Source of the DNA: Carboxylicivirga sediminis
Lineage (GTDB): Bacteria; Bacteroidota; Bacteroidia; Bacteroidales; Marinilabiliaceae
Reading direction: 5' to 3'
DNA: 64,000 nucleotides
Assembly (NCBI RefSeq): GCF_018156225.1
Contig: NZ_JAGTAR010000001.1
Coordinates: 124,001 to 188,000 of the forward strand
The position numbers were made by a program, and so were the translations under genes. Shown piece after piece: positions 1-16,856 of this stretch. The stretch's first letter is position 1; every line of letters starts with the position of its first letter. The notes beneath the pieces are model-generated. The model saw only the letters and a program-made list of their open reading frames with translations, had not been told where the DNA came from and made no database searches.

Positions 1-201
1 AACCCTAAGCCCAATATAAACCCTAACCTTTTCATATAATGCATCTTTTAAATCAAATTTTTCACACTACAAGAATAGGCTATTATGACTTTCAATAGAG
101 GCTGCAGAACGTGTTTTAATGGGGGTGTAAATGATAATTTCTCGAACAAAACTGCTATTCACAGATTTTTTTAAATCAATTAAAGTAACAATTAACTTGC
201 C

Positions 202-924
202 CTATCCATTCAGATGACTAAAATCGCAATGTTTTTTAGAGTTTCTATAGATGCAATTAGTCGCATTACACTGGCTACAGGCATGTTTTCGGTAACGCAC
301 CTTAGTACCAATGCCAATAAACCCACTTACAGACTTAACCGGATGCATCAGGCAGGAGTCGCTTAATGTGATGCCACAGAATTTTTCAGGAAAGAAAGAA
401 AACAGCAGAGCTTGTTCTTTTACATTCCAACCCGAATAACCCGGGCTATAACGATTAGTTATTCTCAGTCCATTGGCTACACACTCATTTTCGATGATTG
501 CTTGTAGCTTATCCATGGCCGTCTCTACCATAACAGAACCCATTACATCCACCAGGTAAGCTTCGAGCCAGTCGCCTTTGGCATTTAATTCGTTTACGCG
601 CTCACTTATTTCATTTCCTGCAGTGCATACAAAAAAAGCTACCTGCTCACTATTGGATAATGCTCCTGCTATTGTTGGTCCGACTTCAAAGTTATTTCCT
701 TCGATGATTATTGTTTCATCCACAACTTCAGCCGGTTCAATTAAATAGCCCCCTTGTATTGAAGCATTTTTTAACCTGCCAAGCAGCTCATCTTCAATAA
801 ACCCGGCATATGAAGGCAAATTCTCATCCATACGAGCTAAACTTTCAACTTCTTCAGCAGTAATTTGAAGTTCCTCAACACTAAAGCGCTTTCTTACAAT
901 ATTATCTGAAATCAACGATTGCAT
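202..924 (-). CDS. MetH activation-domain-like protein, putative corrinoid reactivation factor
   Basis: A 240-residue protein resembling the AdoMet-binding activation domain of B12-dependent methionine synthase. The segment RYSPGYSGWNVKEQ (residues 158-171) matches the R-x-x-x-GY signature of that domain. A C-terminal tail with Cys216, Cys219, Cys224 and Cys233 could bind a metal or an Fe-S cluster; that is inference. Stand-alone proteins of this kind occur beside corrinoid methyltransferases, where they are thought to reduce and remethylate cob(II)alamin that has slipped out of the cycle. It is the last gene of the galactokinase/methyltransferase operon and shares one base with the preceding GTPase gene. 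No RamA-type ferredoxin activase is visible, so this is the best candidate for reactivating the corrinoid protein. It has no signal peptide, so it is cytoplasmic. Confidence 0.75.
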   Translation of the reverse strand: MQSLISDNIVRKRFSVEELQITAEEVESLARMDENLPSYAGFIEDELLGRLKNASIQGGYLIEPAEVVDETIIIEGNNFEVGPTIAGALSNSEQVAFFVCTAGNEISERVNELNAKGDWLEAYLVDVMGSVMVETAMDKLQAIIENECVANGLRITNRYSPGYSGWNVKEQALLFSFFPEKFCGITLSDSCLMHPVKSVSGFIGIGTKVRYRKHACSQCNATNCIYRNSKKHCDFSHLNG

Positions 925-1838
925 TAGTTTTCTTTATATTGTTTAAAAAGTTGACGTAGCTTAACCACATTTAACTCATTGCCAAATGCAATAAGTTCCG
1001 TTGGACCTTCGTAACCCTTCAGTATTTTATATTCTTCTGTTTCAAATACTGAATGAACCGACATCACCTGTCCATCACTCAGGTTTAAGTAGCCCTTAAT
1101 ACGAGGACATTGTTGTTGTAATTCTTTAATTAAGGCATATAACGAGGTTTCTGCGATTTTATCGTGAGTACGTAAAACACAAGAATTCATATCAGGTCGT
1201 CCTGCTGATTCTTTGCCAATAAACTGCACTGCAGCCTCATTTTTGTTTGCATTGCTTCCTTCAAGCGAAAGCCAATCAACGCGTCCATACGTAGTACTTT
1301 GTATCTCTGCAAATGGATTCAGATTTCTCAAATCTTTTTGTATATCCCAAATATTACCTTGCAGACAATCTGTTTTATTGATAATTATCTGGTCGGCAAT
1401 CATTATCTGATGCTTAAATCGCACCAATGTGTTTAGGCCTTTGTAAAAGTTTTGTGCATCAACAACACTGATTATTTTATCCAGAGTGATTTTATCTTTT
1501 AAACCATCACTTTGTAATAACTCCACTATGCTAATCGGATCGGCTAAACCTGATGCCTCCAGGAAGATTATTTCGGGTTGAAAACTGGCCATTAACTGCT
1601 CCAAACTCTGGATAAAAGTATTCAACTGACAAACACAAAACACAGAACCATTGTTAATTTCCACCAGTTTAAACCCATTGTTTTTTTGCTTTAGTTCTTT
1701 GCCATCAATACCAGTTGGGGCAAATTCATTTTGTATGACAGCAATACGTTTCTGAACACTCAATTCAGCAAGCAAGTGACTCAACAATGTAGTTTTTCCA
1801 CTTCCCAAAAAACCAGTTATTAAATTGAATTTGGCCAT
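924..1838 (-). CDS. CobW/G3E-family P-loop GTPase
   Basis: A 304-residue G3E GTPase of the CobW/P47K family, which serve as metal or cofactor chaperones. The Walker A loop is GFLGSGKTT (residues 9-17). The usual CxCC metal-binding motif reads C68-V-C70-Q, so the third cysteine is replaced by glutamine. The region around residues 92-100 (FLEASGLADP) is typical of the family switch segment, and the C-terminal CobW_C-like half is present. Its position between a UroD-thioredoxin fusion and a MetH-activation-like gene suggests a role in loading or repairing the corrinoid methyltransferase, for example by delivering zinc to the UroD-fold enzymes or gating cobamide exchange. A general zinc-homeostasis role cannot be excluded. 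Confidence 0.8.
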   Translation of the reverse strand: MAKFNLITGFLGSGKTTLLSHLLAELSVQKRIAVIQNEFAPTGIDGKELKQKNNGFKLVEINNGSVFCVCQLNTFIQSLEQLMASFQPEIIFLEASGLADPISIVELLQSDGLKDKITLDKIISVVDAQNFYKGLNTLVRFKHQIMIADQIIINKTDCLQGNIWDIQKDLRNLNPFAEIQSTTYGRVDWLSLEGSNANKNEAAVQFIGKESAGRPDMNSCVLRTHDKIAETSLYALIKELQQQCPRIKGYLNLSDGQVMSVHSVFETEEYKILKGYEGPTELIAFGNELNVVKLRQLFKQYKEN

Positions 1839-1890
1839 ATAACAGATATAAACCCGGCAGACTCACTAAAGCCTGCCAGGTGAATAGAAC

Positions 1891-3258
1891 TTAATTCTTA
1901 TTGCTTAGATAATGTTCTATCTTCCCTTTGATATCATTAATTGGTGGTATTTGTGAGATAAACTCAATATTACCATCCATCACTATTGTAGGAAGATTTT
2001 GAACACCAAGGCTCATCATCATCTGAACACCTTCTTTTTCTTTGATACGGTGTTCTTTATAAACCACTTTATCGCCATAATCAGCTGCAGCACGATCAAC
2101 TGCATCTACCATATATTGGCATGGCGCACATGATGACGAATCTAAAGTGATAATATCGATAACTACTTTCGAATCATCCCAGTGATTACTCAAGTCCAGC
2201 TTTTCTAAATCCATTTGCTTTGCTTCAGAGGCACGTAATTCGCCTTGCAGCATTTCATCATGCACCAGTTCCGAAACAGCCACCAAATTCTCCTTCGGCG
2301 TTTCCATGGCTAAATCGCAACCTGGTGCCAGAATAAATCCTTTCTTTCCACCAATATCCATGCATTCGAGCGCATCACGACGCGACGCCTCTTCATCGCC
2401 CATTAAGAGTACCACCGTTAACTTGATGTTACCACCAAAACTCACCTTGTGCTTTAAAGCAGTATCACGCACATAATCCAGGGGAATATTTTCATCAATG
2501 GAAATATTATCCGGATTGGTCTGACACATCACTTCAATGTTTTGCTTGGCATTACCACATACAAAGAACGAGCTTAATGCATCGGCCTCACGAATAAATT
2601 CATTAACCTCTTTGATGTATGGAGACACAAAGGTTTCAAAGCTCATTGGGTCAATCTGACTGGTCATCGGATCGACAATGGCTATCACATCAGCGCCATT
2701 TTCGATATAATTACCGGCCATCATCAAGGCAACGTTGGTGGTAAACCGCATTAATTGATGCGTTTTTTCCGGCTCCATCATCATTTGCATAAAAATGTCG
2801 GTACCCAAAAGGTGAAGCGCCAGTGTAAAAGGGCCTGTTATCAAGCCATAAAGCGCGATATCAGGATGCTGTTCGCGTAGTTCACGTGTCGCTTCCATCA
2901 CCAAAGGGATACGTGCTTTGCAAGGGCATGGCACTTTTAAATCATTGAGACTTACTCCATCTTTTAGAGGATGTGAAACTACCGCCGGGGGGTTGTTATC
3001 AGCCCAAACCAATTGACACCCTAAGGCTTCTGCTTCAATCTGTAAATCAAACGCCACAGGTATTCCATCAGGATTATATAATTTGATGGCTTCATTAACC
3101 CCTTTAACTATGTTGTCTTTCGACTGCAAATACTCAGTGGCTGTCATTCCTAGCAATGCACCTGCATGAGAACCAACAAATGGCACCCACGGAATGCGTT
3201 CTACTTCTTCTAAGCGCATTGCTTTTTTTATTAATTCTATGCCTTTCATGTCATTCAA
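1891..3258 (-). CDS. UroD-family methyltransferase fused to a C-terminal thioredoxin-like domain
   Basis: A 455-residue protein. Residues 1 to about 345 form a uroporphyrinogen-decarboxylase-fold domain of the MtaA/MtbA methylcobamide:thiol methyltransferase type. Candidate zinc cysteines lie in FFVCGN and APGCDLA. The histidine of the usual H-x-C motif is replaced by phenylalanine. Residues about 365-455 form a thioredoxin/glutaredoxin-like domain with a CAPC redox motif (377-380) and a cis-proline segment (LPT). Its first 8 bases overlap the end of the corrinoid-protein gene; starting at Met4 instead would remove the overlap. I infer that it is the second methyltransferase of the system, moving the methyl group from the corrinoid protein to an unknown acceptor, with the redox domain acting as thiol donor, acceptor or reductant. 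Confidence 0.8.
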   Translation of the reverse strand: MNDMKGIELIKKAMRLEEVERIPWVPFVGSHAGALLGMTATEYLQSKDNIVKGVNEAIKLYNPDGIPVAFDLQIEAEALGCQLVWADNNPPAVVSHPLKDGVSLNDLKVPCPCKARIPLVMEATRELREQHPDIALYGLITGPFTLALHLLGTDIFMQMMMEPEKTHQLMRFTTNVALMMAGNYIENGADVIAIVDPMTSQIDPMSFETFVSPYIKEVNEFIREADALSSFFVCGNAKQNIEVMCQTNPDNISIDENIPLDYVRDTALKHKVSFGGNIKLTVVLLMGDEEASRRDALECMDIGGKKGFILAPGCDLAMETPKENLVAVSELVHDEMLQGELRASEAKQMDLEKLDLSNHWDDSKVVIDIITLDSSSCAPCQYMVDAVDRAAADYGDKVVYKEHRIKEKEGVQMMMSLGVQNLPTIVMDGNIEFISQIPPINDIKGKIEHYLSNKN

Positions 3259-3919
3259 CTGTTTTATTTAAAAACTCAACCACGCCTTGTGGATCCGGGT
3301 TATAGCTATCGGCACCTATTTTATCACAGAAATCCTGATTAACAGGTGCTCCACCAATGCAGATAGCTATATTGCGATTATGCGATTTGATGGCTTTTGT
3401 TATTTCTTCCATGTTATTCATAGTAGTGGTCAACAGTGCCGAAAGGCCAATAACAGCTCCCGGGTATTGTTCAGCAGCTTCAATAAACTTTTCAGCCTTA
3501 ACATCAGTTCCTAAATCGATTACTTCATAGCCGTTACCTTCCACCATCATGGCCACCAGATTTTTACCTATATCATGTAAATCACCTTCTACCGTTCCAA
3601 TAATGAATGTGCCTTTTTGTGAACCCGGGCTATTAGCAAAATGAGGTTTCAGATGCGCCATGGCCGCATCCATTGCCTTAGCCGACATCAATACCTGTGG
3701 CACAAACACTTTGTTTTCACGAAATTTCACGCCTACTTTTTCCATGCCAACAATCAATGCCTTTTGCAGAATATCATCTGCAGAAATGCCTTCATTAAGC
3801 AGTTGTTGAGTAATTTCATCGGCCCCATCCTTATCTTTCATATCGGGTGGAAATGGCGATGGCTTGTTTATTTTGCCATACTCTATACAATAGGCTAATT
3901 GCTCAAATAACTCTTCCAT
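3251..3919 (-). CDS. Corrinoid (B12-binding) methyltransferase protein, MtaC/MtbC-like
   Basis: A 222-residue methyl-carrier protein. The N-terminal helical cap (about residues 1-95) matches the B12-binding-2/MetH cap type. The Rossmann-like cobalamin domain carries D113-L-H115-D-I-G118; this D-x-H-x-x-G motif places His115 as lower axial ligand to cobalt. The downstream GxG-like segment CIGGAPVNQDF is also typical. MtaC, MtbC and acetogen O-demethylase corrinoid proteins are normally about 210-220 residues, so the length is standard. It sits between the two UroD-family genes, as expected for the protein that shuttles a methyl group between a substrate-specific and a second methyltransferase. 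Confidence 0.92.
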   Translation of the reverse strand: MEELFEQLAYCIEYGKINKPSPFPPDMKDKDGADEITQQLLNEGISADDILQKALIVGMEKVGVKFRENKVFVPQVLMSAKAMDAAMAHLKPHFANSPGSQKGTFIIGTVEGDLHDIGKNLVAMMVEGNGYEVIDLGTDVKAEKFIEAAEQYPGAVIGLSALLTTTMNNMEEITKAIKSHNRNIAICIGGAPVNQDFCDKIGADSYNPDPQGVVEFLNKTVE

Positions 3920-3964
3920 TTTATCTATTTTTTAATCGTACCAAATAGCTTTAGCAAACTTCAA

Positions 3965-4978
3965 CTAGCACTTTTGTGCTTTTATCAAATCGATGAAGGC
4001 CACAATGTTCTCAATTGGAGTATCACCTTCGGTAGCATGCGATGGACAAAAGATATAGCCACCGTCTTTACCCATTTCCAGCAGGTGTTTGGTTTCAGCA
4101 ACCACATCTTCAACGGTACCATAGGGCAGTGTTTTTTGGGTTGATAACCCACCGTGGAAAGCTACTTTTCCTCTGTATGTATTTAGCAAATCATCAACAT
4201 CCAGCACTTCGGGCTGGAAAGGATTAATACAATTAACTCCTGCTTCAATCAATTCGGGAATAATCTCTTCAATATCGCCACACGAGTGAATCAATTGGTA
4301 TTTTCCATGTGCTTTGGTATTGGCATACATGCGTTTCAATTCAGGATATATGAATTCTATCCATACATCTTTACCCATCATCAGCTTCTTTTGAGCCCCC
4401 CAATCATCTCCAAAGTAAATACCGTCAACCTCAGGATAACGTTCACACACGTTTTTGATTACAGCAATGTTGAAATCAGCAATTTTACGCATCAGGTCTT
4501 TAACAAAATCAGGATACATCATAAAGTCAAGAAATGCATTTTCCATACCCCGCAAAGTCCAATAGCGCTCAAACAGGCTGAACCCAATACTGTAAAGAAT
4601 AAATTTATCTTTGTTGGCAGCTATCTTTTCCTCCATGCCATCATACAACATCGGATTATTTGGATCAGGAAACTCATAGCCATCTAATGTTGGTTCAGGA
4701 AGTACTAAACCTTCAACATTACCAATATCCTTTTCGTGAGTCATATCCCAGATAACACCGAAGATATCTTTCTTACGGTCGTTACCGATATTAATTTTAA
4801 ATCCACTTGATGCACCCAGTTTAATAAAATGGTTATCTACCAACTCTTCCACATCAACATCATCACCATAGTGTGCTTTCATTTTATCTAAAGCTTCAAT
4901 GGTAAATTTACAGTCCCATGGCACATAAGGAGGTTGTTTACCATCAAGCACCATCTTTATTACCTCTTTTTTTGTCAT
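3965..4978 (-). CDS. UroD-family substrate:corrinoid methyltransferase (putative sugar O-demethylase)
   Basis: A 337-residue UroD-superfamily protein. The reading frame extends upstream to 5020, but that would overlap the galactokinase gene by 26 bases. I chose Met15 because the following segment (MTKKEVIKMVLDGKQP) is how the family begins. Motifs include YFGDDWG, HSCGD (likely metal or substrate ligands) and HGGLSTQKTLPYGT. The family includes the O-demethylating methyltransferase MtvB of acetogens as well as genuine uroporphyrinogen decarboxylases. With a corrinoid protein next door and no haem genes nearby, methyltransfer is much more likely. Directly following a galactokinase gene, it is the candidate for taking the methyl group off a methylated galactose. 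Substrate assignment is inference. Confidence 0.78.
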   Translation of the reverse strand: MTKKEVIKMVLDGKQPPYVPWDCKFTIEALDKMKAHYGDDVDVEELVDNHFIKLGASSGFKINIGNDRKKDIFGVIWDMTHEKDIGNVEGLVLPEPTLDGYEFPDPNNPMLYDGMEEKIAANKDKFILYSIGFSLFERYWTLRGMENAFLDFMMYPDFVKDLMRKIADFNIAVIKNVCERYPEVDGIYFGDDWGAQKKLMMGKDVWIEFIYPELKRMYANTKAHGKYQLIHSCGDIEEIIPELIEAGVNCINPFQPEVLDVDDLLNTYRGKVAFHGGLSTQKTLPYGTVEDVVAETKHLLEMGKDGGYIFCPSHATEGDTPIENIVAFIDLIKAQKC

Positions 4979-4994
4979 AATATTTGCCTGTACT

Positions 4995-6161
4995 TTAAAC
5001 CAATTCTTTACACTGCTCAATGTGTGTTCCTCGAGCTGTTTTTACTCCATACACCTGGCACTCAATACCTGTTAATTCTTTGTAAGTATCAAATACGCCT
5101 TTCTTAAACTCTTCTAACTTATCCTTATATACCAAAGACACCATACAACCACCAAATCCAGCTCCAGCCTGTCGGGATGCAACTGAACCCGGCGCTGTTC
5201 GCATAGCTTTATACATAGCTTCCATTTGTGGAACAGAAATCTCAAACAAATCTTTAGCACCCTGAAATGAACGGTCAAAGATGTCTGCAAGCTTTCCTAC
5301 TTCATTATTAGTCAATGCTTCTTCTAACTCTAGTGTACGATCATTTTCTTCGATAATAAATTGAGCACGCTTGGCTGCATTTTCTGATAACAGGTGTTTA
5401 TGCTTATGGAAGAAATTTATGCTCACATCACGCAACGCATTGATGGATGCATCTACTTTTGCAAACTCAGCCACAGCTTCTTCGCATTGCGCACGACGAT
5501 CGTCGTATTCTGAACCATGCAGCTGGCGAGCTTTGTTAGTATTGCAAATGGCCACCATGATATCCTTTGGCCAGCTCACCTGCTTATGTGACAACTCACG
5601 GCAATCCAATTGAATAGCCTTATGTCTTTCGCCAAAAACAACTGAATACTGGTCGAGAATACCGCAATTAACACCTACATAAACATTCTCGGCACGCTGA
5701 CTTAGCAAAGCCATCGTCTTCATATCGATGGTAAACCCTGATGCATGTGCCATCATGGCCATTGTAGTTGCTTCAAGTGCTGCAGAACTGGACAATCCTG
5801 AACCCAATGGAATGGTACTACATAAGGCTCCTTTAATCGCTTTCAATTCATATCCTTCATCAATTAGTACCTTGGCTACCGCACTGATGTATTTTCCCCA
5901 ATCATCGCCTTTAACCATTTCACCTGTCTTTACATCGATAGATACCGTACTATCAAGATTACATGAGTACAAGCGAATTAAACCATCATCCGTATTTGAA
6001 AAAGCACACTCTATTAGGAGGTTAATCGGCATGGTTACAACAAAGCCCATATTGTAATCGGTATGGCTCCCCATTAAATCAACTCGCCCCGGCGAACAAG
6101 CCTTAAATTGCGGCGTATCTCCATATTGTTGCCTAAAATCCTTGAGTACATTCGTATTCAT
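4995..6161 (-). CDS. galK: Galactokinase-like GHMP kinase
   Basis: A 388-residue GHMP-family kinase with the full galactokinase layout: sugar signature SPGRVDLMGSHTDYN (residues 23-37), ATP loop PLGSGLSSSAA (118-128), catalytic Asp170 in GVNCGILDQ, and the C-terminal GAGFGGC motif. It would phosphorylate galactose at C1. The signature normally reads GEHTDY, and here the Glu is Ser32. In known structures, as I recall them, that Glu contacts the sugar near the C6 hydroxyl, so the change may alter specificity. It is the first gene of the methyltransferase operon and is preceded by a divergent AraC regulator. Galactose from agar/porphyran, or 6-O-methyl-galactose, is the plausible substrate. Confidence 0.88.
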   Translation of the reverse strand: MNTNVLKDFRQQYGDTPQFKACSPGRVDLMGSHTDYNMGFVVTMPINLLIECAFSNTDDGLIRLYSCNLDSTVSIDVKTGEMVKGDDWGKYISAVAKVLIDEGYELKAIKGALCSTIPLGSGLSSSAALEATTMAMMAHASGFTIDMKTMALLSQRAENVYVGVNCGILDQYSVVFGERHKAIQLDCRELSHKQVSWPKDIMVAICNTNKARQLHGSEYDDRRAQCEEAVAEFAKVDASINALRDVSINFFHKHKHLLSENAAKRAQFIIEENDRTLELEEALTNNEVGKLADIFDRSFQGAKDLFEISVPQMEAMYKAMRTAPGSVASRQAGAGFGGCMVSLVYKDKLEEFKKGVFDTYKELTGIECQVYGVKTARGTHIEQCKELV

Positions 6162-6339: not shown

Positions 6340-7161
6340 TTGAGGCCAAATATTGAGAAAATAGAACTGGACAAAGGGCACTCATTTCATGTTGGAACCT
6401 ATTCGGCCAAATACTTTGAACGCTCGTGGCACTACCATAATGAGTTTGAATTACTGTTAATAACCAAAGGCTATGGCACCCGTGTGGTTGGTGATAATAC
6501 TAGTCCTTTTGCAGTAGGTGATTTGGTTTTGTTAAGTGGCAACGTTCCTCACGCATGGTTTTCAGACACAGTGTTTTTTGAGCCTGATAATAATGAGAAA
6601 TGCGAGTCGATTTACATCCAATTTGACCGCTCTATATTTGGTACACGCTTTGCTGGCTTACCCGAAATGCAAGCAGTCAACCTACTATTAAACAATGCGA
6701 AGTATGGATTAAAATATGAACCCGGTGATGATTGTGTGGATATTATTAATTTGATATGTAATTTCCCTAGTTACCAAGGCGTTGACCGACTACTTAAACT
6801 GATTAAAGTTCTTGATTTGTTTCAGAAAGGCCATTATGAAACCATCGTATCCAAAGAATACTTCAATAGCTTGTTGATTACCAACTCTGACCGAATAAAG
6901 AAAATACATGAGTATGTAATGAATAATTACATGGCAGATATTAGCGTTCAAAAAGCAGCTGAACTGGTTGAAATGAATGTTAGCTCATTTTGCCGTTTCT
7001 TTAAAAAGCTAACGCACAGAACCTTTTCCCAATTTGTAAAAGAAACGCGCATTGATTATGCACAGCAACTACTCATTAACACTAATCTATCATCCAATCA
7101 AATAGGCTTTGAATGTGGATTCAGTTCTGTGGCCTATTTAACCAGTGCTTTAAAAAAATAA
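6340..7161 (+). CDS. AraC-family regulator, C-terminus frameshifted
   Basis: A 273-residue AraC/XylS-type regulator with an N-terminal cupin sugar-sensing domain (WHYHNEFELL, residues about 30-40; PHAWFSD) and a C-terminal double helix-turn-helix (about 180-273). Translation appears to begin at TTG, since an in-frame stop lies 21 bases upstream. The frame stops after ALKK, just before the usual final segment. The missing residues (KISGKSPLEYR and a short tail) are encoded in the -1 frame up to the stop at 7206-7208. The join falls in a run of seven A inside T TTA AAA, a canonical slippery heptamer. It could be a one-base loss, a sequencing error or a real recoding site. It is transcribed divergently from the galactokinase operon, which it probably controls. 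Confidence 0.8.
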   Translation: MRPNIEKIELDKGHSFHVGTYSAKYFERSWHYHNEFELLLITKGYGTRVVGDNTSPFAVGDLVLLSGNVPHAWFSDTVFFEPDNNEKCESIYIQFDRSIFGTRFAGLPEMQAVNLLLNNAKYGLKYEPGDDCVDIINLICNFPSYQGVDRLLKLIKVLDLFQKGHYETIVSKEYFNSLLITNSDRIKKIHEYVMNNYMADISVQKAAELVEMNVSSFCRFFKKLTHRTFSQFVKETRIDYAQQLLINTNLSSNQIGFECGFSSVAYLTSALKK

Positions 7162-8129: not shown

Positions 8130-8801
8130 TTAGACTTTAACTGCCTTAATTGTTGCAACCAATTCTCTCACCTTGTTTTCCAATGCTTCCCAATTCTTCT
8201 TATCCATTATCTCTTTCGGAAACAGATTTGAACCCATGCCTACACAAGTGACGCCTGCCAAAAACCAATCTTCCAAATTATCCTTATCGCAAGTAACACC
8301 ACCTGTTGGCATGATGTCGGTCCATGGCATTGGTGCTTTAACTGCTTTTACAAATGAAGGTCCTCCAACTTCGGAAGCCGGAAAAACCTTTACCACTTCA
8401 CAACCCAGCTCTTGCGCCTTATTAATTTCAGATATAGTACCACAACCAGGCGCCCACATTATTTTTCGGCGGTTACAGATCCTTGCCATTGTCTCATTCA
8501 GCAATGGCGATACAATAAAATTGGCACCACTCTGAATATATAACGCTGTTGTTCCCTCTTCAACAATAGAGCCAGCACCAAGAATCATACCTGGTAATTC
8601 AGCTAAGGCATACTTATTCAGCTCTGTGAACAATTCATGGGCAAAATCGCCACGATTAACAAACTCAAACACGCGAATACCCCCATTGTAACAAGCTCTC
8701 ACAACGGCTTTGCAAACTTCAATATCGGCATGATAAAAAACCGGTACTACACCTGTGTCTTTCATTGCCTGATAAACCTCTATTCTTGTATATCTTGACA
8801 T
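8130..8801 (-). CDS. eda: 2-keto-3-deoxy-6-phosphogluconate/galactonate aldolase
   Basis: A 223-residue class I aldolase of the KDPG/KHG family, the standard length. The Schiff-base lysine is Lys138 in CEVVKVFPA and the catalytic glutamate is Glu46 in FEFVNRG. The phosphate-binding GGV segment (MPTGGVTCDN-like) is present. It cleaves KDPG or KDPGal to pyruvate and glyceraldehyde-3-phosphate. It is the last intact gene of the operon starting at 16856 and follows the matching kinase by 82 bases. The context (GH117, aldehyde dehydrogenase, cycloisomerase) places it at the end of 3,6-anhydrogalactose breakdown rather than in a glucose Entner-Doudoroff pathway. Confidence 0.9.
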   Translation of the reverse strand: MSRYTRIEVYQAMKDTGVVPVFYHADIEVCKAVVRACYNGGIRVFEFVNRGDFAHELFTELNKYALAELPGMILGAGSIVEEGTTALYIQSGANFIVSPLLNETMARICNRRKIMWAPGCGTISEINKAQELGCEVVKVFPASEVGGPSFVKAVKAPMPWTDIMPTGGVTCDKDNLEDWFLAGVTCVGMGSNLFPKEIMDKKNWEALENKVRELVATIKAVKV

Positions 8802-8883
8802 ATAAAACTGAGTCAGAAGGAAGTGTTAAAGGCAGAATTATTCAACCTCCTTTTGCCACTACCTAATTACTTATAAATACTAA

Positions 8884-9984
8884 TTACCTATCAACCCGTG
8901 CATTTCCACCGCCCATAATTTTTTCTACTTCGGGTAGCGTTACCATGGTTGTATCACCAGGAGTTGTCATCGCCAATGCGCCATGTGCAGCACCATAGTC
9001 AACAGCTTTTTGGCCATCGTTGTATTCCATAAAACCATAAATAAGACCTGATGCAAAACTATCGCCTCCTCCCACACGGTCCATTATTTCAAGATTTGGA
9101 CGATGTATTGCCTCATGAATCTTACCATCCGCATAACAGATGGCTCCCCATGAGTTGATGGTTGCCGATTTTACAGTACGTAATGTTGTGGCTATAACAC
9201 TGAAATTAGGAAAAGCCTCAATAGCTGACTTAATCATTACCTTGTAACCTTCAATGTCAAGTTCTTTCAAATCCTGATCATTTCCTTCAATTTCAAGACC
9301 CAGGCAAGCAGTAAAGTCCTCTTCATTGCCAATCATTACGTCAACGTATTTGGCAATTTCCCGGTTTACTTCCTGAGCTTTTCGTTCACCACCAATGGAT
9401 TTCCACAAGGATGGCCGGTAATTTAAATCGTAAGAAACAATGGTTCCATATTTTTTAGCCACCTTAACGGCTTCAATAACCGTTTCGGCTGCCGATTCAG
9501 ATAAAGCAGCGAAGATACCTCCGGTATGCATCCAGCGAACGCCAAGAGTACCAAAAATGTATTCCCAATCAATATCTCCAGGCCTTAATTGTGATGCGGC
9601 TGTATTGCCACGATCAGATACACCTTTTGCGCCACGAATTCCATACCCTCTCTCGGTAAAGTTCAATCCATTACGAACACTTCGTCCGCAGCCATCATAA
9701 TCAACCCATTTGACAAATTGCGTATCCAACCCTCCTTGTAACATCAAATCTTCAACTAAAGCACCAATTTCGTTGTCTGCCAAAGCCGTTACAATAGCGG
9801 TTTTCTTACCAAAGCATTTTCTTAAACCACGTGACACGTTATACTCGCCACCGCCTTCCCATACAGCAAAGGAGCGTGTGGTGCGTATACGTCCTTCTCC
9901 AGGATCGAGTCTTAACATTACTTCACCTAATGAAATACAATCGTACGCACACTCTGATGCCGGTTTAATAATCAATTTACTCAT
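8884..9984 (-). CDS. kdgK: 2-keto-3-deoxygluconate (or -galactonate) kinase, PfkB family
   Basis: A 366-residue ribokinase/PfkB-family sugar kinase. The N-terminal half has the substrate region EGGGEYNVSRGL (about 43-54), and the C-terminal ATP/anion-hole motif is VGGGDSFASG, with Asp308 as catalytic base. It would phosphorylate 2-keto-3-deoxy-sugar acids at C6 for the adjacent aldolase. Length and motifs match Bacteroidota KDG kinases. Whether the substrate is D-KDG or KDGal depends on whether the Zn-dehydrogenase and reductase upstream epimerise the intermediate first. Confidence 0.88.
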   Translation of the reverse strand: MSKLIIKPASECAYDCISLGEVMLRLDPGEGRIRTTRSFAVWEGGGEYNVSRGLRKCFGKKTAIVTALADNEIGALVEDLMLQGGLDTQFVKWVDYDGCGRSVRNGLNFTERGYGIRGAKGVSDRGNTAASQLRPGDIDWEYIFGTLGVRWMHTGGIFAALSESAAETVIEAVKVAKKYGTIVSYDLNYRPSLWKSIGGERKAQEVNREIAKYVDVMIGNEEDFTACLGLEIEGNDQDLKELDIEGYKVMIKSAIEAFPNFSVIATTLRTVKSATINSWGAICYADGKIHEAIHRPNLEIMDRVGGGDSFASGLIYGFMEYNDGQKAVDYGAAHGALAMTTPGDTTMVTLPEVEKIMGGGNARVDR

Positions 9985-10038
9985 TGCTGTTTTATTATTG
10001 ATTGAATTGTGAGTTTATATAATTTATGAAGATAAGCT

Positions 10039-11040
10039 TTAGGCTGCTAGTCCGTTACCATACGCAATAATGACAACTCCAATAATCATAGCGGCCAATC
10101 CAATATAAAGTGCCGTTTTGGCTTTATCCGGTGCTGTCACCCATTCTTTAGTAACAATTCCTCCAACAACGGCTACAACCACCGACATGGTATTAAAAAT
10201 GGCATAACCAATGGTGCCTCCTGCTTTCCCTAATACAAAGGCAGAGTAGGCAAATAATACAGAAGCTGTAAAGTTTAATGCAGCCATCAACGCTGTTAAC
10301 GATACATTTTTGTTGGCTCCAGCCACTTTAAAACTACCCCACATTTTTTTGCGGGATATCTGAATGACGAAATAAGGAATCACAAACAATCCGCCAGATA
10401 CATATACAATAAACATTGAAGCTACTGAAGTCAGCCAGCTTTCGTTGCCATTGTTCTGAACGGCAGCTGCTATGGCATCCTTTCCAAACTCATTAGCTAC
10501 GTTAAAACCTGTGCAAAGCAATCCTCCAACCACAGCTATGATGATACCTGTTGCCATTGATGAACTACCCGCATTTTTTTTATTTTCACCTGCTCGAAGA
10601 ATACCTGCCCGGCCATTCATAATGATACCTATCAAAATTATTACAATCCCAATCAGCACTGCAACAAGAATATTGGTTGCAGGTAACCCATGAATAAAAA
10701 ATGGTAAAACCGACCCGATAAAAACAATGGTACCGATGAAAATGGAAAATCCCAAAGACAGGCCAATGTGATTAATGGCTTTTCCCCAAAGCAACATGCC
10801 AACGCCCCATAGGAAGCTAGGAATAAGCATTTTCAATAAAATTGGCGCCCCCACATCACTCAAAACCTGGGCAAATCCATCAATCATAGAAAAGGCCAGT
10901 ATAGCAGGCACAATCCACAACATAAAGAGAAAACAAAGTCCCCATGTATTTTCGAATTGATAATTTTTTACAAATTTCTCGGGCATGGCATAGAAGCCCA
11001 GCATAACGCCTGCAAATATGGCAAATAGAATTCCAATCAT
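10039..11040 (-). CDS. RhaT-like sugar:proton symporter
   Basis: A 333-residue integral membrane protein with about ten hydrophobic segments, resembling the L-rhamnose/proton symporter family of the drug/metabolite transporter superfamily. It begins directly with a membrane helix and has no cleaved signal. Lying between aldose-epimerase and KDG-kinase genes, it most likely imports a monosaccharide released in the periplasm by GH117 or related enzymes, with 3,6-anhydro-L-galactose or galactose as prime candidates. Family members are named after rhamnose, but no rhamnose genes are nearby. Substrate is inferred from context only. Confidence 0.8.
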   Translation of the reverse strand: MIGILFAIFAGVMLGFYAMPEKFVKNYQFENTWGLCFLFMLWIVPAILAFSMIDGFAQVLSDVGAPILLKMLIPSFLWGVGMLLWGKAINHIGLSLGFSIFIGTIVFIGSVLPFFIHGLPATNILVAVLIGIVIILIGIIMNGRAGILRAGENKKNAGSSSMATGIIIAVVGGLLCTGFNVANEFGKDAIAAAVQNNGNESWLTSVASMFIVYVSGGLFVIPYFVIQISRKKMWGSFKVAGANKNVSLTALMAALNFTASVLFAYSAFVLGKAGGTIGYAIFNTMSVVVAVVGGIVTKEWVTAPDKAKTALYIGLAAMIIGVVIIAYGNGLAA

Positions 11041-11133
11041 AACTTTAGATTTTTTATTCGGTGCTCAATGCATTATGCACAGTGCACTTATTTTTTAGTT
11101 AACTATTATCAAAAAGAGACCCAATGCTAGCTC

Positions 11134-12180
11134 CTAGAATCTTAGTTTAAATACTGTTGTGCTCTTAAACTCCTCTCCGGCTTTGGTGATGGACTTTGGC
11201 GAACCGCTAATATTGGGACCATTGGGCCAACGATGTGTTTCGCAGCAAAAACCCTGATACTTCCCGTATTTTTCAGATTCAGACCGCTGCAATTCATTGG
11301 ATGTGTATTTGCCGGTGTAAAACAACATACATGGCTCCGTTGAGTACACTTCCAATGTGCGACCAGACTGTTCATCGCTTACCCGGGCCACTTTACTCAA
11401 GGTTTCTTCTGCATAATCAAACAGATAGAAATGTTCGAAACCATCCCCAATGGATTCGTGAACATCTTTAATAATACGCCCATTGCGCAAATCTTCTAAA
11501 GTATCTGTTACATCAGTTACTTCACCTAAACAAGCGCCCGTATCATCACTTAACAATCGTTTATTGGATAACACTTGTACTTTAAATCTTTCCACGCTTC
11601 GCTCAAATCCTGAAAGGTTAAAGTAAGTATGATTTGTCATGGATAAAGGTGTATCCCGATCGCTTACAGCCTTATAGTTGAGAATTAATTCATTGTCATT
11701 GCTCAACTCGATGGTCACTTCAGCTTTTACGGTTCCCGGAAAGCCTTCTTCCATATCATCACTAATTAAGGTGAATACTACACCCACCTTCCCAACTCCT
11801 CCTATTGGTTTGGCTTTCCATATTTTTTTATCGAAACCAATCATTCCGCCATGCAAGTTGTTATCGCCACAGTTGGCCGCCAATTGATAGTCAACTCCAT
11901 TTAACGAGAACTTTGCATCTTTTATCTGCGAACAGTAACGCCCAACTGTACATCCAAAGTAGGGCGCATTGGCCTTATAAACATCAGCAAAATATTCGTC
12001 AAACGAATCAAAACCACATGCTATAGAAACAGGCTTATCATCTTTACCCGGGATTGTTATGGATGTAATGGTGGCACCAAAATCCATCATCTTCACTAGC
12101 ATACCATTATCATTCTCCAAAGTATACAAGTGAATATCCTGATTTTGGAATTGTCCGAAAAGTTGAGTTGTGGATTTCAT
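11134..12180 (-). CDS. galM: Aldose 1-epimerase (galactose mutarotase type)
   Basis: A 348-residue GalM-family protein. It carries NLHGG (about residues 104-108), the TNHTYFNLSG segment with catalytic His, and FYTGKY plus a glutamate-containing CCETHRWPN near the C-terminus where the catalytic base is expected. It interconverts alpha and beta anomers of hexoses. No signal peptide is seen, so it is probably cytoplasmic. It may feed the galactokinase or the aldehyde dehydrogenase of this locus with the right anomer. Confidence 0.88.
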   Translation of the reverse strand: MKSTTQLFGQFQNQDIHLYTLENDNGMLVKMMDFGATITSITIPGKDDKPVSIACGFDSFDEYFADVYKANAPYFGCTVGRYCSQIKDAKFSLNGVDYQLAANCGDNNLHGGMIGFDKKIWKAKPIGGVGKVGVVFTLISDDMEEGFPGTVKAEVTIELSNDNELILNYKAVSDRDTPLSMTNHTYFNLSGFERSVERFKVQVLSNKRLLSDDTGACLGEVTDVTDTLEDLRNGRIIKDVHESIGDGFEHFYLFDYAEETLSKVARVSDEQSGRTLEVYSTEPCMLFYTGKYTSNELQRSESEKYGKYQGFCCETHRWPNGPNISGSPKSITKAGEEFKSTTVFKLRF

Positions 12181-12250
12181 GATTTAATTATTAGAAAACA
12201 GTCAGCAGACAGTAGTAAACCAACATCTACTGACCACTGACTAATGACTA

Positions 12251-13342
12251 CTATTTTTCTTTATATGGTGCTAGTTTATCCCAATTGAATTCAACTCCAA
12301 TACCTGGTGTATCAGGCGCAACAGCACGATGATTCTCCACCACCAATGGTCGATGTGTATATTCATCAATGGGGAAACTGTGCACCTCAATCCATCCGGC
12401 ATTAGGCTGTGATGAAACCAGGCTTACATGTAATTCCTGCATTCCATGTGAACAAACCGGAATATTATTTTCAGCAGCCAACTTTGCCGCTTTCAACCAT
12501 CCGGTGATACCTGCGCAGTTAGATGCATCGGGCTGAACGAATGACAACTTAGAATCAGCCATCGCATACTCAAATTCATGAATCGTATGTAAATTCTCTC
12601 CCATCGCTAAAGGTACTCCTGTGGCTTCTGCGATTGCAGCGTAACCTTTGTAATCATCGGGTATGATGGGCTCTTCAAACCAGTAAATATCGTACTGTTT
12701 AAAGCGATTAGCTGCTTCAATGGCTTTCTCAACACTCATGGAGTAATTGGCATCTACCATAAACGTCACATCTGGGCCAATAAATTCACGCACCGCCCTG
12801 ATACGCTCAATATCTTCATCCAGGTTATCGCGACCAATCTTGATTTTAACCGCATTAAAACCTCTATCTAGATAGCCCTGAATACTATCCAGTAGTTTTG
12901 GCAATGGAAACATCAAATCGATACCTCCACAATAAGCTTTACACGTATTGTTGGTACCACCAGCAACTTTCCACAGTGGTTCACCTGCATTTTTACAACG
13001 GATATCCCACAAAGCAATATCAACAGCCGCCATTGCAAAAGCATCAATACCGCCGCGCCCCACATAATGAGCATGCCACCACATCATATCATTCAGGTCT
13101 TCAATATTCTCAGCGTCTTTACCGAGTAAAGCAGGTGCATAATCGAAATCTATCATTGCCTTAATGGCATGACCACCTTTTCCTCCGGTATAAGTATAAC
13201 CGGTTCCTTCCGTGCCATCTTCAAGCGTTACGGTCGCCGTTATGAGTTCAAAATGAAAATGGTCGCCATGCTTGGCATCCGACAACACCTCTTTTAATGG
13301 AACTTTGAAGAGTTGGGTATGTATGTTTTTAATCTTTGTCAT
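12251..13342 (-). CDS. Enolase-superfamily sugar-acid cycloisomerase/dehydratase (3,6-anhydrogalactonate cycloisomerase candidate)
   Basis: A 363-residue mandelate-racemase/muconate-lactonising-type enzyme. The frame extends five codons upstream to 13357, but the Met at 13342 fits the family start better. Catalytic residues are in place: K166-I-K168, metal ligands Asp197, Glu223 and Glu249, and His299 in CSHGMQ. Known 3,6-anhydro-L-galactonate cycloisomerases of agar degraders are enolase-superfamily proteins of about this size, opening the anhydro ring to 2-keto-3-deoxygalactonate. Placement directly after the aldehyde dehydrogenase and with a GH117 in the locus makes that the best call. A galactonate- or fuconate-type dehydratase is the main alternative. 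Confidence 0.75.
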
Positions 13343-13442
13343 TAGTCTTAATATCAAGATTCAAGTATCAGGACATAAGGTGATTTATTACTTTACTAAT
13401 CACCCTTAGTCTTAATACTTATGTCTTACATCTTGTGTCTTA

Positions 13443-14900
13443 TTACGCTTTAAATCGCACATAGAAGGTCTTCTTCTCCAGATACTGCTCAAAACCATAT
13501 TTGCCATCTTCACCACCTGTTCCACTCATTTTGTAGCCGTTGTGAAAGCCCTGATGCAATTCTCCATGCCCTCTGTTGATATAGATTTCACCGAAGTCCA
13601 ATTCGCTGTTAAGACGCATCACACGGTTCATATCATTCGTATAAACCATGGCTGCCAAACCAAATTCACAGTCGTTGGCCCACTCTACTACCTGGTCAAA
13701 ATCGTTAAACTTAATAACCGGTAATATGGGTCCAAATGCTTCCTCATGAACAATGGTCATATCTTGCTTTACATCCGTCAGGATAGTTGGCATAAACCAG
13801 TTTCCTTTTTCATACTCTGCTCCGTCTGGTGTTTTTCCGCCATAAGCCAATGTGGCTCCTTCTTTTATGCTGACATCAACCAACTCCTGCATGTGCTTCA
13901 ATTCCGACTTGTTAACTTTGGCTCCCATATCAGAGGCCTCGTCGAACGGATCACCCACTTTGATATTTTTTACCTTGGCCATGAATTTGGCCATGAACTC
14001 ATCATAGATAGCTTCATGCACGTACATACGCTCGTTACACGTACATACCTGACCACAATTGTCGAAACGTGAGTGTAGAGCACCTTCCACCGCAGCATCA
14101 ATATCACAATCTTCGAAGGCGATGAAAGGCGCCTTACCACCAAGCTCTAGCTGTACATGAGCCAGATTTTCAGATGCCGCTTTAAAGATGGCCTGACCAG
14201 CAGGTGTAGAACCCGTCATGGTTACCATCTTAGTAATTTCGTGTTTACAAAGGGCTGTTCCCATAGTACGCCCAGGGCCTGTAACAATGTTTAATACACC
14301 GTCTGGAATGCCAGCTTTTTTTGCTAACTCGCCCAACATTAGTGTCGAAATGGGTGTTTCAGTAGTTGGCTTAATCACCATGGTATTACCAGCTACCAAA
14401 GCTGGACCTATCTTTCGACCTGCCAATGCTAAAGGAAAATTCCACGCTGTGATAGCTACTACCACCCCACGTGGAATTTTCTGAATCCAGATTTGTTCGT
14501 TCTCATTGTCGGAAGGCACTATGTCTCCCTCAATGCGACGGGCCCATTCGCAGGCATATTCAATAAATGAGCAGCATACATCAACCTCAAAGCGGGCAAC
14601 CTTAAAAAGCTTCCCTTGTTCTTTGGTCAATACAGTTGCTAACTCTTCTCTGTTTGCTTTTATTTCTTTTACAAATGCATATAACAACTCTGCACGCTTA
14701 CGTGCAGGTATCTTTGCCCAGTCTTTTTGCGCTGCTTCGGCAGCTTCCAATGCTTTTATGGCATCTTCTTCATTGCCATTGGCCACTGTTCCCACCAGAC
14801 TATCATCTGATGGATTAAGTACATCGGCTGTTTGGCCATTAGAAGGCTCAACCCAAAGCCCATTTATGTATTGCTTGAAATTTAAATTGGTGGTATTCAT
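13443..14900 (-). CDS. Aldehyde dehydrogenase, candidate 3,6-anhydro-L-galactose dehydrogenase
   Basis: A 485-residue NAD(P)-dependent aldehyde dehydrogenase of the AldA/lactaldehyde-dehydrogenase type. Catalytic Cys286 lies in NCGQVC, Glu252 in LELGGK, the oxyanion Asn in TAWNFP (about 154), and the cofactor lysine in VIKPTTETP. The anhydrogalactose dehydrogenases of agar-degrading Vibrio and Bacteroidota belong to this family and oxidise the free aldehyde at C1 to 3,6-anhydrogalactonate. Gene order (dehydrogenase then cycloisomerase) and GH117 in the locus support this. Lactaldehyde dehydrogenase is the alternative, but no fucose or rhamnose isomerase, kinase or aldolase is present. Confidence 0.78.
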   Translation of the reverse strand: MNTTNLNFKQYINGLWVEPSNGQTADVLNPSDDSLVGTVANGNEEDAIKALEAAEAAQKDWAKIPARKRAELLYAFVKEIKANREELATVLTKEQGKLFKVARFEVDVCCSFIEYACEWARRIEGDIVPSDNENEQIWIQKIPRGVVVAITAWNFPLALAGRKIGPALVAGNTMVIKPTTETPISTLMLGELAKKAGIPDGVLNIVTGPGRTMGTALCKHEITKMVTMTGSTPAGQAIFKAASENLAHVQLELGGKAPFIAFEDCDIDAAVEGALHSRFDNCGQVCTCNERMYVHEAIYDEFMAKFMAKVKNIKVGDPFDEASDMGAKVNKSELKHMQELVDVSIKEGATLAYGGKTPDGAEYEKGNWFMPTILTDVKQDMTIVHEEAFGPILPVIKFNDFDQVVEWANDCEFGLAAMVYTNDMNRVMRLNSELDFGEIYINRGHGELHQGFHNGYKMSGTGGEDGKYGFEQYLEKKTFYVRFKA

Positions 14901-14995
14901 AATTATTAAGTTTTAGTATGAAACATTGAGTGTTGCGAAATGAAATATGAGTCGCTTGCTTTTGCTCAATTCTCATTAAGTCTCTACATTTGAAA

Positions 14996-15766
14996 TTAAC
15001 GTCCCATCCAGCCACCATCGACTAAAACGATGCTTCCATGCATATAGGCTGCTGCTTCAGAACAAAGGAAGACGACAGGACCTGCAAAATCTTCTGGTTT
15101 ACCCCAGCGACCAGCCGGAATACGTGCTAATATCTGCTCCGAACGAATAGGGTCATTACGCAATGCTTCTGTGTTATCAGTGTCGATGTAACCTGGAGCC
15201 ACCGCGTTTACATTCACACCTTTTGAAGCCCACTCATTAGCAAAAGCCATGGTTAACTGACCAACAGCACCTTTGCTGGCTGCGTAACCTGGCACTGTAA
15301 TACCTCCCTGAAATGTTAGTAACGATGCCGTAAACACCACTTTACCAGAACCCCGCTTTACCATTTCTTTACCAAACTCACGCGTAAGGATGAACTGAGC
15401 GTTTTGATTCACCTCAATCACTTTATCCCACATTTCATCAGGATGCTCAGCTGCGGGTGTGCGCAGGATGGTTCCTGCATTGTTTACCAATATATCCACC
15501 ACCGGATGGTTGGCCTTAACTTCTTTAATAAATGCGTACAACGATTCTCGTTTACTGAAGTCGCAGGTGTATGCAGTAAATTTCTTACCGGCTGCTTCAA
15601 CCGCTTTACCAACGGCACTACCTTCTTTTTCCAAAGATGCGGAAACACCAATTATATCGGCACCTGACTCAGCCAAAGCCACTGCCATACCCATACCAAT
15701 ACCTCTTTTACAACCTGTAACCAAGGCTACTTTGCCTTCTAATGAAAATTTATTTAAGATGCTCAT
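14996..15766 (-). CDS. KduD-like short-chain dehydrogenase/reductase
   Basis: A 256-residue classical SDR with cofactor loop T17-G-C-K-R-G-I-G24, NNAG (95-98) and catalytic Ser148, Tyr161 and Lys165. The sequence start and overall pattern resemble KduD (2-deoxy-D-gluconate/5-keto-type reductase). In one described anhydro-L-galactose pathway, 2-keto-3-deoxy-L-galactonate is oxidised at C5 and then re-reduced to 2-keto-3-deoxy-D-gluconate by an SDR; I infer this enzyme does the reduction. It lies 76 bases after the Zn-dehydrogenase gene. Glucose or rhamnose dehydrogenase activity cannot be excluded. Confidence 0.75.
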   Translation of the reverse strand: MSILNKFSLEGKVALVTGCKRGIGMGMAVALAESGADIIGVSASLEKEGSAVGKAVEAAGKKFTAYTCDFSKRESLYAFIKEVKANHPVVDILVNNAGTILRTPAAEHPDEMWDKVIEVNQNAQFILTREFGKEMVKRGSGKVVFTASLLTFQGGITVPGYAASKGAVGQLTMAFANEWASKGVNVNAVAPGYIDTDNTEALRNDPIRSEQILARIPAGRWGKPEDFAGPVVFLCSEAAAYMHGSIVLVDGGWMGR

Positions 15767-15842
15767 TTTAATACTATTTGTTGATTTGCTTATTTGATCA
15801 TTTATTGTTTTGATGTCCTCGATATGTCACTTGATGAGACCA

Positions 15843-16856
15843 TTACTGGCAATCCACCAAATACTTCATCCCATTGGGATTGGTATCGATTTGCTCAAAC
15901 AATTGCTGTATATTATCCAGTGGTTCAACAGCAGTGATAAGTGTTTCGAATGGCAGTTCATTTTTAGTAATCAGGTCAATTGACTCTTCATAATCCTCTC
16001 CTTCGTAAACGCGTGCACCTATCAATTCCAGCTCTTTCCAGAAGAATTTAAATAAATCCACCGGCTTTTTCTCACCATGAATAGCCACCATCACAATACG
16101 ACCACGTATGCCAGCCACTTCGGTCATCACATCTAACGATGGCTGAACACCTGCTACTTCGAACACTACGTCGGCCAAACCACCGTTGGTCTTTTCTTCA
16201 ATATACGCTACCAAATCCGTTTTAACAGGATTAACTACCTCGAAGCCCATGTCTTCGGCCATTTTAATGCGAATATCATTGACTTCCGAAATGACAACAT
16301 TAGCGCCTTTGCTTTTGGCTACCATGGCAACCAGTAAACCAATTGGTCCACCTCCCAGTACAACAGCTGTTTCACCCTGAAGCAAACGACCACGACGCAC
16401 ATCGTGACATGCCACAGCCAATGGTTCTACCAAGGCTGCCAATTTCAAATCGGTTGTCTGGTTCAACTTATGAAGTGTAAAAGCTGGTACATTCCAGTAT
16501 TGCTGCATCGCCCCAGGACTATCAATACCAATGAATTTCAATTTCTTGGCAATGTGCCCAAAGCCCTTGTCTGATTCTGCTTCCAGTCGGTTATCCAAGG
16601 GACGGACAGTCACCTTCTCTCCCACTTCAAAACCTGTTACACCCTCGCCTATTGCATCCACCGTACCAGACATTTCGTGTCCGATTATCTGAGGAATATT
16701 TACACGTTGATCCATCATACCATGGTAGATATGAACATCGGTACCGCAAACACCACAGTAAGCGACTTTGATTCTAACCTCTCCGGCTGCCGGAGTTTCA
16801 TTTTCCTTTTCTACTACAGCGAAGGTTTTATTACCTTCATATAATGTTGCTTTCAT
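15843..16856 (-). CDS. Zinc-type alcohol dehydrogenase lacking the structural zinc site
   Basis: A 337-residue medium-chain dehydrogenase. Catalytic zinc ligands are Cys37 (CGVCGTD) and His60-Glu61 in GHE, and the cofactor loop is GGGPIGLL. The stretch after VTVRPL, where most family members have four structural-zinc cysteines, contains none and reads DNRLEAESDKGFG. It is similar to sorbitol/L-threonine dehydrogenases and to the L-galactonate 5-dehydrogenase group. As first gene of the operon it is the candidate for oxidising the C5 hydroxyl of 2-keto-3-deoxy-L-galactonate so that the SDR can invert the centre. The role is inferred from operon content. Confidence 0.78.
   Translation of the reverse strand: MKATLYEGNKTFAVVEKENETPAAGEVRIKVAYCGVCGTDVHIYHGMMDQRVNIPQIIGHEMSGTVDAIGEGVTGFEVGEKVTVRPLDNRLEAESDKGFGHIAKKLKFIGIDSPGAMQQYWNVPAFTLHKLNQTTDLKLAALVEPLAVACHDVRRGRLLQGETAVVLGGGPIGLLVAMVAKSKGANVVISEVNDIRIKMAEDMGFEVVNPVKTDLVAYIEEKTNGGLADVVFEVAGVQPSLDVMTEVAGIRGRIVMVAIHGEKKPVDLFKFFWKELELIGARVYEGEDYEESIDLITKNELPFETLITAVEPLDNIQQLFEQIDTNPNGMKYLVDCQ

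Follow-up and report, generated by a model that had tools for sequence, protein, structure and literature searches.

The region considered here is a window of 64,000 nucleotides from Carboxylicivirga sediminis (positions 124001-188000 of its contig 45, in a host genome of 5.8 Mb), in which six adjoining genes form an operon that is a candidate for the corrinoid-dependent demethylation of a methylated red-algal sugar (Table 1). The operon begins with a galactokinase-like kinase (GalK), followed by a UroD-fold methyltransferase (MT1), a corrinoid protein (CP), a second UroD-family protein fused to a thioredoxin domain (UroDTrx), a CobW-family GTPase and a protein resembling the activation domain of MetH. 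A first-pass annotation of the same DNA had described six co-oriented genes of these families, and this description is borne out by both the reading frames and the profile matches. Indeed, all six frames were confirmed where the annotation had placed them, and they are closely packed on the minus strand, with intergenic gaps of 13, 45, 1 and 52 bp and, at one junction, an overlap of a single base when the first ATG is taken for MT1 (frame 3965-5020, with the better start at ATG 4981) and for UroDTrx (frame 1891-3258, first ATG at 3249). GalK scores 288.7 bits against TIGR00131, exceeding the cut-off of 226.65; MT1 scores 76.6 bits against the URO-D profile PF01208 and UroDTrx 206.4 bits against URO-D, together with 23.9 bits against Thioredoxin_3, slightly below the cut-off of 24.8. 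The CobW profile gives 141 bits for the fifth product and Met_synt_B12 42.5 bits for the sixth, while the D-x-H-x-x-G motif attributed to the corrinoid protein is present as DLHDIG. As for known riboswitches, no Rfam match exceeded the gathering score in the window.

Table 1. Features of the operon and of the surrounding agar locus, in window coordinates.
Feature	Position	Strand	Basis or remark
Galactokinase-like GHMP kinase (GalK), operon gene 1	4995..6161	-	TIGR00131; signature GRVDLMGSHTDY, mostly G-E-H-T-D-Y in others
MT1, UroD-fold methyltransferase, candidate sugar:corrinoid demethylase	3965..4981	-	PF01208; predicted Zn site His-Cys-His
Corrinoid protein (CP), B12-binding	3251..3919	-	PF02310 and PF02607; DLHDIG
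UroD-thioredoxin fusion (UroDTrx), MtaA-like second methyltransferase	1891..3249	-	FVCGN (Phe for Zn His), Cys314 kept, CAPC thioredoxin motif
CobW-family GTPase, putative metallochaperone	924..1838	-	CobW profile
MetH-activation-domain-like protein, putative corrinoid reactivator	202..924	-	RYSPGY; C-terminal CxxCx4C
AraC-family regulator with cupin-type sensor domain	6340..7161	+	Divergent from operon; 59-60% relatives in the same place in L027, L030, L031
Start of GH16 beta-agarase D-like gene	1..44, continues beyond window (L015:8653-10044)	-	Best solved relative beta-agarase D, E 1.1e-90
Anhydrogalactose genes: KDPG-type aldolase, PfkB kinase, RhaT-like transporter, aldose epimerase, anhydrogalactonate cycloisomerase, aldehyde dehydrogenase, SDR, Zn-dependent alcohol dehydrogenase	8130..16856	-	Profile matches
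GH86 beta-agarase	17758..19965	-	Structure 8h97, E 1.6e-198
GH117 anhydro-L-galactosidase	31127..32341	-	Structure 3p2n, E 3.4e-202

The setting beside GH86, GH117 and an anhydrogalactose operon, also part of the first-pass annotation, is upheld by matches to solved structures, among them that of the anhydrogalactonate cycloisomerase to 5xd7 (E 4.1e-187). Downstream of the operon and on the same strand, the GH16 gene begins at window position 44 and is followed by a same-strand GH2 gene and, farther away, by a GH2 gene nearest to 5t9a (E 6e-300), a GH3 gene and a sulfatase. With GH16 on one side and the anhydrogalactose genes, GH86 and GH117 on the other, the operon therefore lies within a region for agar utilisation.

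When the two UroDTrx proteins of the host were used to scan 84,980 species genomes, 26 loci were obtained. The order GalK-MT1-CP-UroDTrx-CobW is also present in four of them, L027, L028, L030 and L031, which are SZUA-series metagenome-assembled genomes that we take to be marine, and because these further loci retain it, the arrangement is not due to chance. The activation-like gene continues the order in L027, L030 and L031, and L028 stops inside CobW. Identity to the window proteins in these four loci is 84-88% for MT1 and 65-72% for GalK. A GH86-type gene adjoins the regulator in L027 and a GH2-like gene precedes GalK in L028; the genes preceding the L031 operon include no sugar genes by Pfam. 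Kinases at least 67% identical to the window GalK are found in 3 of 384 genomes, that of the window included, and all three have the operon; among the matches listed, the next best reaches 36%. A second clade of MT1 proteins, 50-55% identical to that of the window, accompanies the cassette in Saccharicrinis (L023), in two Neiella loci (L033, L034) and in L086, and in Labilibacter marinus a second-clade MT1 (L080), which lies beside a GH2-like gene, and the cassette are on separate contigs. Two named strains, Saccharicrinis aurantiacus HQYD1 and Labilibacter marinus Y11, combine an MT1 of this clade and the cassette with GH86. The MT1 tree groups the five window-type rows in one clade (100/100) and the five second-type rows in another (99/97). 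In the UroDTrx tree, the cassettes with the GalK-MT1 pair form no single supported clade, the forks being open and a single clade not rejected. Neiella belongs to the Gammaproteobacteria, and its two loci share with the window 72-76% identity in CP and UroDTrx, 52% in MT1 and 46-49% in CobW and the activation-like protein; these cassettes have probably been transferred between phyla. Subdoligranulum comprises gut bacteria, and in plasmid records one distant match each was obtained in Subdoligranulum variabile (OY725838.1, OY725850.1), with an MT1-like protein at 31% over 69% of MT1 and a UroDTrx-like protein at 41%.

The distribution of the system was then compared with that of GH86, for which PF18206 was used as a proxy. 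Within the order, GH86 scores above the cut-off in 5 of 393 genomes, which belong to four families. UroDTrx is matched at E <= 1e-60 in 20 of the 393, and the matches of at least 75% identity are exactly the five GH86 genomes, the next best being at 71%. The Fisher probability, uncorrected for kinship, is 1.3e-11 at this threshold, which was set after the fact, and 2e-7 for all 20 UroDTrx matches. The wider check covered 25 handles, corresponding to 24 distinct genomes (G379 and G399, whose GH86 places coincide exactly, were counted once; G042 and G395 are one genome, as are G132 and G396), and in most genomes reached via loci MT1 was judged within the fetched locus only. The first-pass annotation had proposed looking for co-occurrence with red-algal galactan genes, and it is found: GH86 is present in all five genomes with the GalK-MT1 operon, against the background frequency in the order sample. 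It is likewise present in 5/5 genomes with a second-clade MT1 and a UroDTrx of at least 75% identity, in 2/5 with such a UroDTrx and no MT1 of these types alongside, in 0/1 with a 67% cassette and in 0/8 with MT1 relatives (43-54%) and no UroDTrx of at least 75%, where one match lies below the cut-off.

A second line of evidence comes from Labilibacter sediminis. In this species, a single run (L036) contains CP, UroDTrx, CobW, a DUF4395-like gene, the activation-like gene and RACo, after which three more genes of that strand encode a cytochrome P450, a 2Fe-2S ferredoxin and a ferredoxin reductase. The best solved relative of this P450 is 6g5o (E 1.1e-190), an entry titled simply "Cytochrome P450" that we take to be the carbohydrate P450 of Zobellia. 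According to the available part of a paper that cites the Zobellia structure, a P450, a ferredoxin and a ferredoxin reductase make up the oxidative demethylase of 6-O-methyl-D-galactose (PMC10033563). A P450 occurs in 6 of the 16 genomes searched (G395, G397, G399, G403, G404 and G406), every time with the same triplet, and the other five share 67-74% identity with the P450 of L036; each of the 16 genomes therefore has either none or this P450. The linkage thus points, by a second route, to 6-O-methyl-D-galactose as the substrate that the corrinoid cassette would serve. P450-type demethylation was rejected for the host, as no cytochrome P450 (PF00067) was found in its genome. Two minor features of Labilibacter sediminis may be recorded here: the DUF4395-type protein (L036:12337-12852), between CobW and the activation-like gene, scores marginally below the cut-off, and beside the P450 and cassette run another segment (L164:8865-12976) carries an AraC-like regulator, a CP, an MtaB-like methanol methyltransferase (421.8 bits, cut-off 720) and a CobW-like gene.

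Taken together, the co-occurrence with GH86 and the P450 link support the oxygen-independent corrinoid route for methylated galactose that had been proposed from the window. In our estimation, with a probability of roughly 0.64, the operon specifies an O-demethylase that works anaerobically with a corrinoid and acts on 6-O-methyl-D-galactose, or its 1-phosphate, derived from red-algal agar or porphyran. In such a pathway, the kinase would phosphorylate C1 of either the methylated sugar or the galactose set free from it, so that phosphorylation could come before or after demethylation. The zinc of MT1 would bind the methyl ether oxygen and the methyl group would be passed to Co(I) of the corrinoid protein, releasing D-galactose or galactose-1-phosphate into the Leloir pathway; the other kinase of that pathway and GalT are encoded elsewhere in the host genome. 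UroDTrx would then move the methyl group from the corrinoid to a thiol, which may be a cysteine of its own thioredoxin domain or a small thiol compound, while the MetH-activation-like protein would rescue oxidised corrinoid, probably with S-adenosylmethionine, and CobW would supply metal.

DLHDIG is present in 19/19 corrinoid proteins read. A profile built from 15 MT1 proteins weakly matches MtaA (4ay7, E 5e-4), and in the alignment MT1 has His and Cys at two of the positions that we take to be the zinc ligands of MtaA and His at the third, where MtaA has Cys; the resulting pattern, HxC with a later His, is found in all 19 MT1 proteins read. In the activation-like protein, RYSPGY, presumably the AdoMet-binding motif of MetH, is present in 15/16, and the C-terminal CxxCx4C was printed for 15 rows and seen by eye in the sixteenth (L036). 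As to the kinase, the five GalK orthologues all carry G-S-H-T-D-Y and lack the canonical galactose-binding signature G-E-H-T-D-Y, while Glu occupies this position in 23 of the 25 other readable GalKs, which come from 27 lower-identity loci, two of them unreadable, that represent the best-scoring loci out of 209 matching genomes. This Glu presumably contacts O6 of galactose, an assumption for which no literature source was found.

The zinc site also bears on a further explanation, namely that the operon is a system of the kind encoded by type 1 mlp gene clusters, acting on methyl-selenium or methyl-sulfur compounds. As far as the available text of PMC10418091 describes them, these clusters likewise combine several UroD-family proteins with a corrinoid protein and have no tetrahydrofolate methylase nearby, much as the window operon pairs two UroD-family proteins with a corrinoid protein without such a methylase in the cluster, and the thioredoxin part of UroDTrx weakly matches NF047660. 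UroD-family S-methyltransferases are, however, described in the same source as having a His-Cys-Cys site, one or both cysteines being replaced in the O-methyltransferases, and the His-Cys-His site predicted for MT1 differs from the thiol-methyltransferase pattern. Indeed, neither UroD protein of the operon has His-Cys-Cys, the Ram/RACE component that is the other mlp feature is also missing, the genome contains no RACo, and the genes stand with a sugar kinase in an agar context; in addition, the main text of that paper, as available, does not mention CobW and has "thioredoxin" once, in a reference title. An mlp-like function is thus highly improbable.

With regard to the fate of the methyl group, the first-pass annotation had listed the parts of a corrinoid demethylase, of which the UroD-family MT1 and the corrinoid protein stand; a dedicated PF00809 methyltransferase (MT2) and RACo were sought and not found. 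In particular, the PF00809 matches in the host genome are a stand-alone 289-residue frame, by inference FolP, and the MetH frame, and nothing else, PF02007 (the MtrH type) not having been searched. Transfer to tetrahydrofolate through a dedicated PF00809 enzyme was accordingly dropped as a candidate within these limits, and the "C1 unit" that had been named as a product is left with no such acceptor enzyme in the genome. UroDTrx is homologous to MtaA (4ay7, E 4.2e-28) and, being MtaA-like, is the natural second methyltransferase. It keeps both Zn-site cysteines and differs from MtaA-type methyl-corrinoid:coenzyme M methyltransferases in having Phe in place of the zinc histidine and a C-terminal thioredoxin domain. 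Among the 28 UroDTrx rows read for motifs, which exclude L045, Phe and CAPC are present in all and the second Cys in 27, one having an unread stretch there. The missing zinc His and the fused CAPC domain suggest that the acceptor is a thiol and that it is dealt with in a novel manner; we propose that the thioredoxin fusion is what handles it. We know of no coenzyme M in Bacteroidota. As RACo/RACE (PF14574) was not found in the host genome, reactivation by the MetH-activation-like protein is probable.

Several observations weigh against 6-O-methyl-D-galactose demethylation as the function of the operon. The host genome has a single GH86 copy, which is an agarase, and the Glu-to-Ser change in GalK is suggestive at most and proves nothing alone, because the host's other GalK, next to GalT, has Asn at the same position. 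RACo-like genes stand beside the activation-like gene in eight related loci (two recognised by Pfam, the others by BLAST to that of L027), yet there is none in the host. In Labilibacter sediminis, no MT1 lies beside the cassette, the genome is without GH86 and a methanol-type MtaB-like unit is nearby, and no sugar genes adjoin the two Neiella operons. A UroDTrx of at least 75% identity occurs without GH86 in three genomes (G400, G401, G406), and G397 and G402 have GH86 and the cassette with no such MT1 alongside. Four of the eight GH86-less genomes with MT1 relatives (G014, G032, G233, G311) have UroDTrx at 53-57%, and in G106, also without GH86, a row (L081:9422-12815) comprises an MT1 relative (54%), CP, an activation-like protein and a UroD without thioredoxin. 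For gut porphyran loci, the available part of PMC12316285 notes no suspect gene around them. MT1-type systems are thus broader than agar, as such sets exist in GH86-less genomes; the window-type MT1 with GalK was seen solely in GH86 genomes. In G032, moreover, the gene of an MT1 relative (54%) and a galactokinase gene with the canonical signature run towards each other (L082:8149-10344).

Some of these points would fit a general corrinoid methyl-donor system, for methanol, betaine or methoxy-aromatics, that merely adjoins the agar locus. Likeness to methanol, methylamine and betaine systems is seen in both CP and the MtaA-like part, the MtaB-like gene with its own CP beside the Labilibacter sediminis cassette is of this kind, and the Neiella operons do without adjoining sugar genes. 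None of the six proteins, however, is of the MtaB, MttB or MtgB kind; sugar genes accompany MT1 in most other loci (GalK, GH2, a RhaT-type transporter, GH120, or an alpha-amylase-family gene with a sugar transporter), and the co-occurrence with GH86 also speaks against this reading. We therefore regard a general methyl-donor system as quite improbable.

The variation of MT1 bears on the identity of the substrate. The host genome has a second operon (L016:6321-12790, contig 47:81321-87790), in which identity to the window proteins is 42% for the activation-like protein, 57% for CobW, 81% for UroDTrx and 67% for CP, and just 33% over 223 residues for MT1. It is headed by a RhaT-type sugar transporter in place of the kinase, with a GH29 fucosidase nearby on the opposite strand, and perhaps serves a methylated deoxysugar; SusC/SusD-like genes, labelled by eye, also lie near it. 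The MT1 slot stands beside a GH120-type gene in L025 and beside an alpha-amylase-family gene and a sugar transporter in L026. In L022, L024 and L032, there is no MT1 before CP and a GntR regulator with a periplasmic-binding-protein-type domain is found there instead, L032 having a UroD and a RhaT-like gene immediately beyond on the opposite strand. MT1 looks exchangeable, since the second operon retains the cassette although its MT1 is another one and is accompanied by a sugar transporter, and the arrangement is as expected for an exchangeable substrate enzyme on a common methyl-transfer cassette. It could tentatively be extended to a wider scheme, which we consider possible but less likely than not: CP, UroDTrx, CobW and the activation-like protein would be a general plug-in platform for the oxygen-free demethylation of methylated sugars, charged by varied UroD-type MT1s, each with its own sugar genes, and the methyl group would exit via a protein-bound thiol belonging to the fused thioredoxin domain, replacing tetrahydrofolate or coenzyme M. 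Since loci that have the cassette in common differ in their MT1, the cassette itself does not reveal the substrate. The same kind of enzyme might then act on another methyl ether of red-algal galactans, and agars do contain 2-O-methyl-anhydrogalactose and 4-O-methyl-L-galactose, among others; a methylated oligosaccharide could also be the substrate. Although the neighbouring genes process 3,6-anhydro-L-galactose and MT1 differs among loci with a constant cassette, a galactokinase-family kinase is present in 5/5 operons and the P450 link favours 6-O-methyl-D-galactose, which makes such a substrate unlikely.

Corrinoid O-demethylases of acetogens, of the OdmB/VdmB type, act on aromatic methyl ethers. 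They share with the operon a UroD-family MT1, a corrinoid protein, a second methyltransferase and an activator, as far as the available text of PMC10418091 goes, a likeness of family membership in which MT1 was set against them by description. By comparison, the operon has a sugar-linked context, an extra CobW and a thioredoxin-fused UroD, in a genome without a dedicated PF00809 MT2 and without RACo. The P450 system of Zobellia and Formosa has the same proposed conversion (6-O-methyl-D-galactose to D-galactose) and the same red-algal galactan context, and L036 has a system of this type in the same run of genes as its corrinoid cassette, but the P450 system is oxidative, yields formaldehyde, consists of unrelated proteins and is absent from the window genome (PMC10033563, in its available part). 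The first-pass annotation had known of no sugar demethylase of the corrinoid type, and in agreement none was found described in the open-licence literature, which leaves most subscription papers uncovered; in the portion available, a 2025 paper describes the mechanism used by anaerobes as yet to be discovered (PMC12316285). The operon is thus a concrete candidate for oxygen-free demethylation of 6-O-methyl-D-galactose, with a directly testable substrate. If this is correct, corrinoid demethylation would be extended from aromatics, amines, methanol and thiols to carbohydrates, the use of methylated seaweed sugars without oxygen would be accounted for, and MT1 with the cassette would mark the oxygen-free route. 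The thioredoxin-fused second methyltransferase, in turn, hints at an acceptor that is neither tetrahydrofolate nor coenzyme M.

Two further observations concern other loci of the host. On contig 38, a 387-residue UroD-family protein (L018:7895-9058) lies among fucosidase-like, sulfatase-like and GH20-like genes, labelled by eye, and no corrinoid protein frame was seen in the 16 kb around it. Within the window, positions 40217-62184 hold a second polysaccharide locus, of the mannan type, with GH5, an alpha-galactosidase, an epimerase, an esterase, GH26, a GH2 mannosidase-like gene and GH130.

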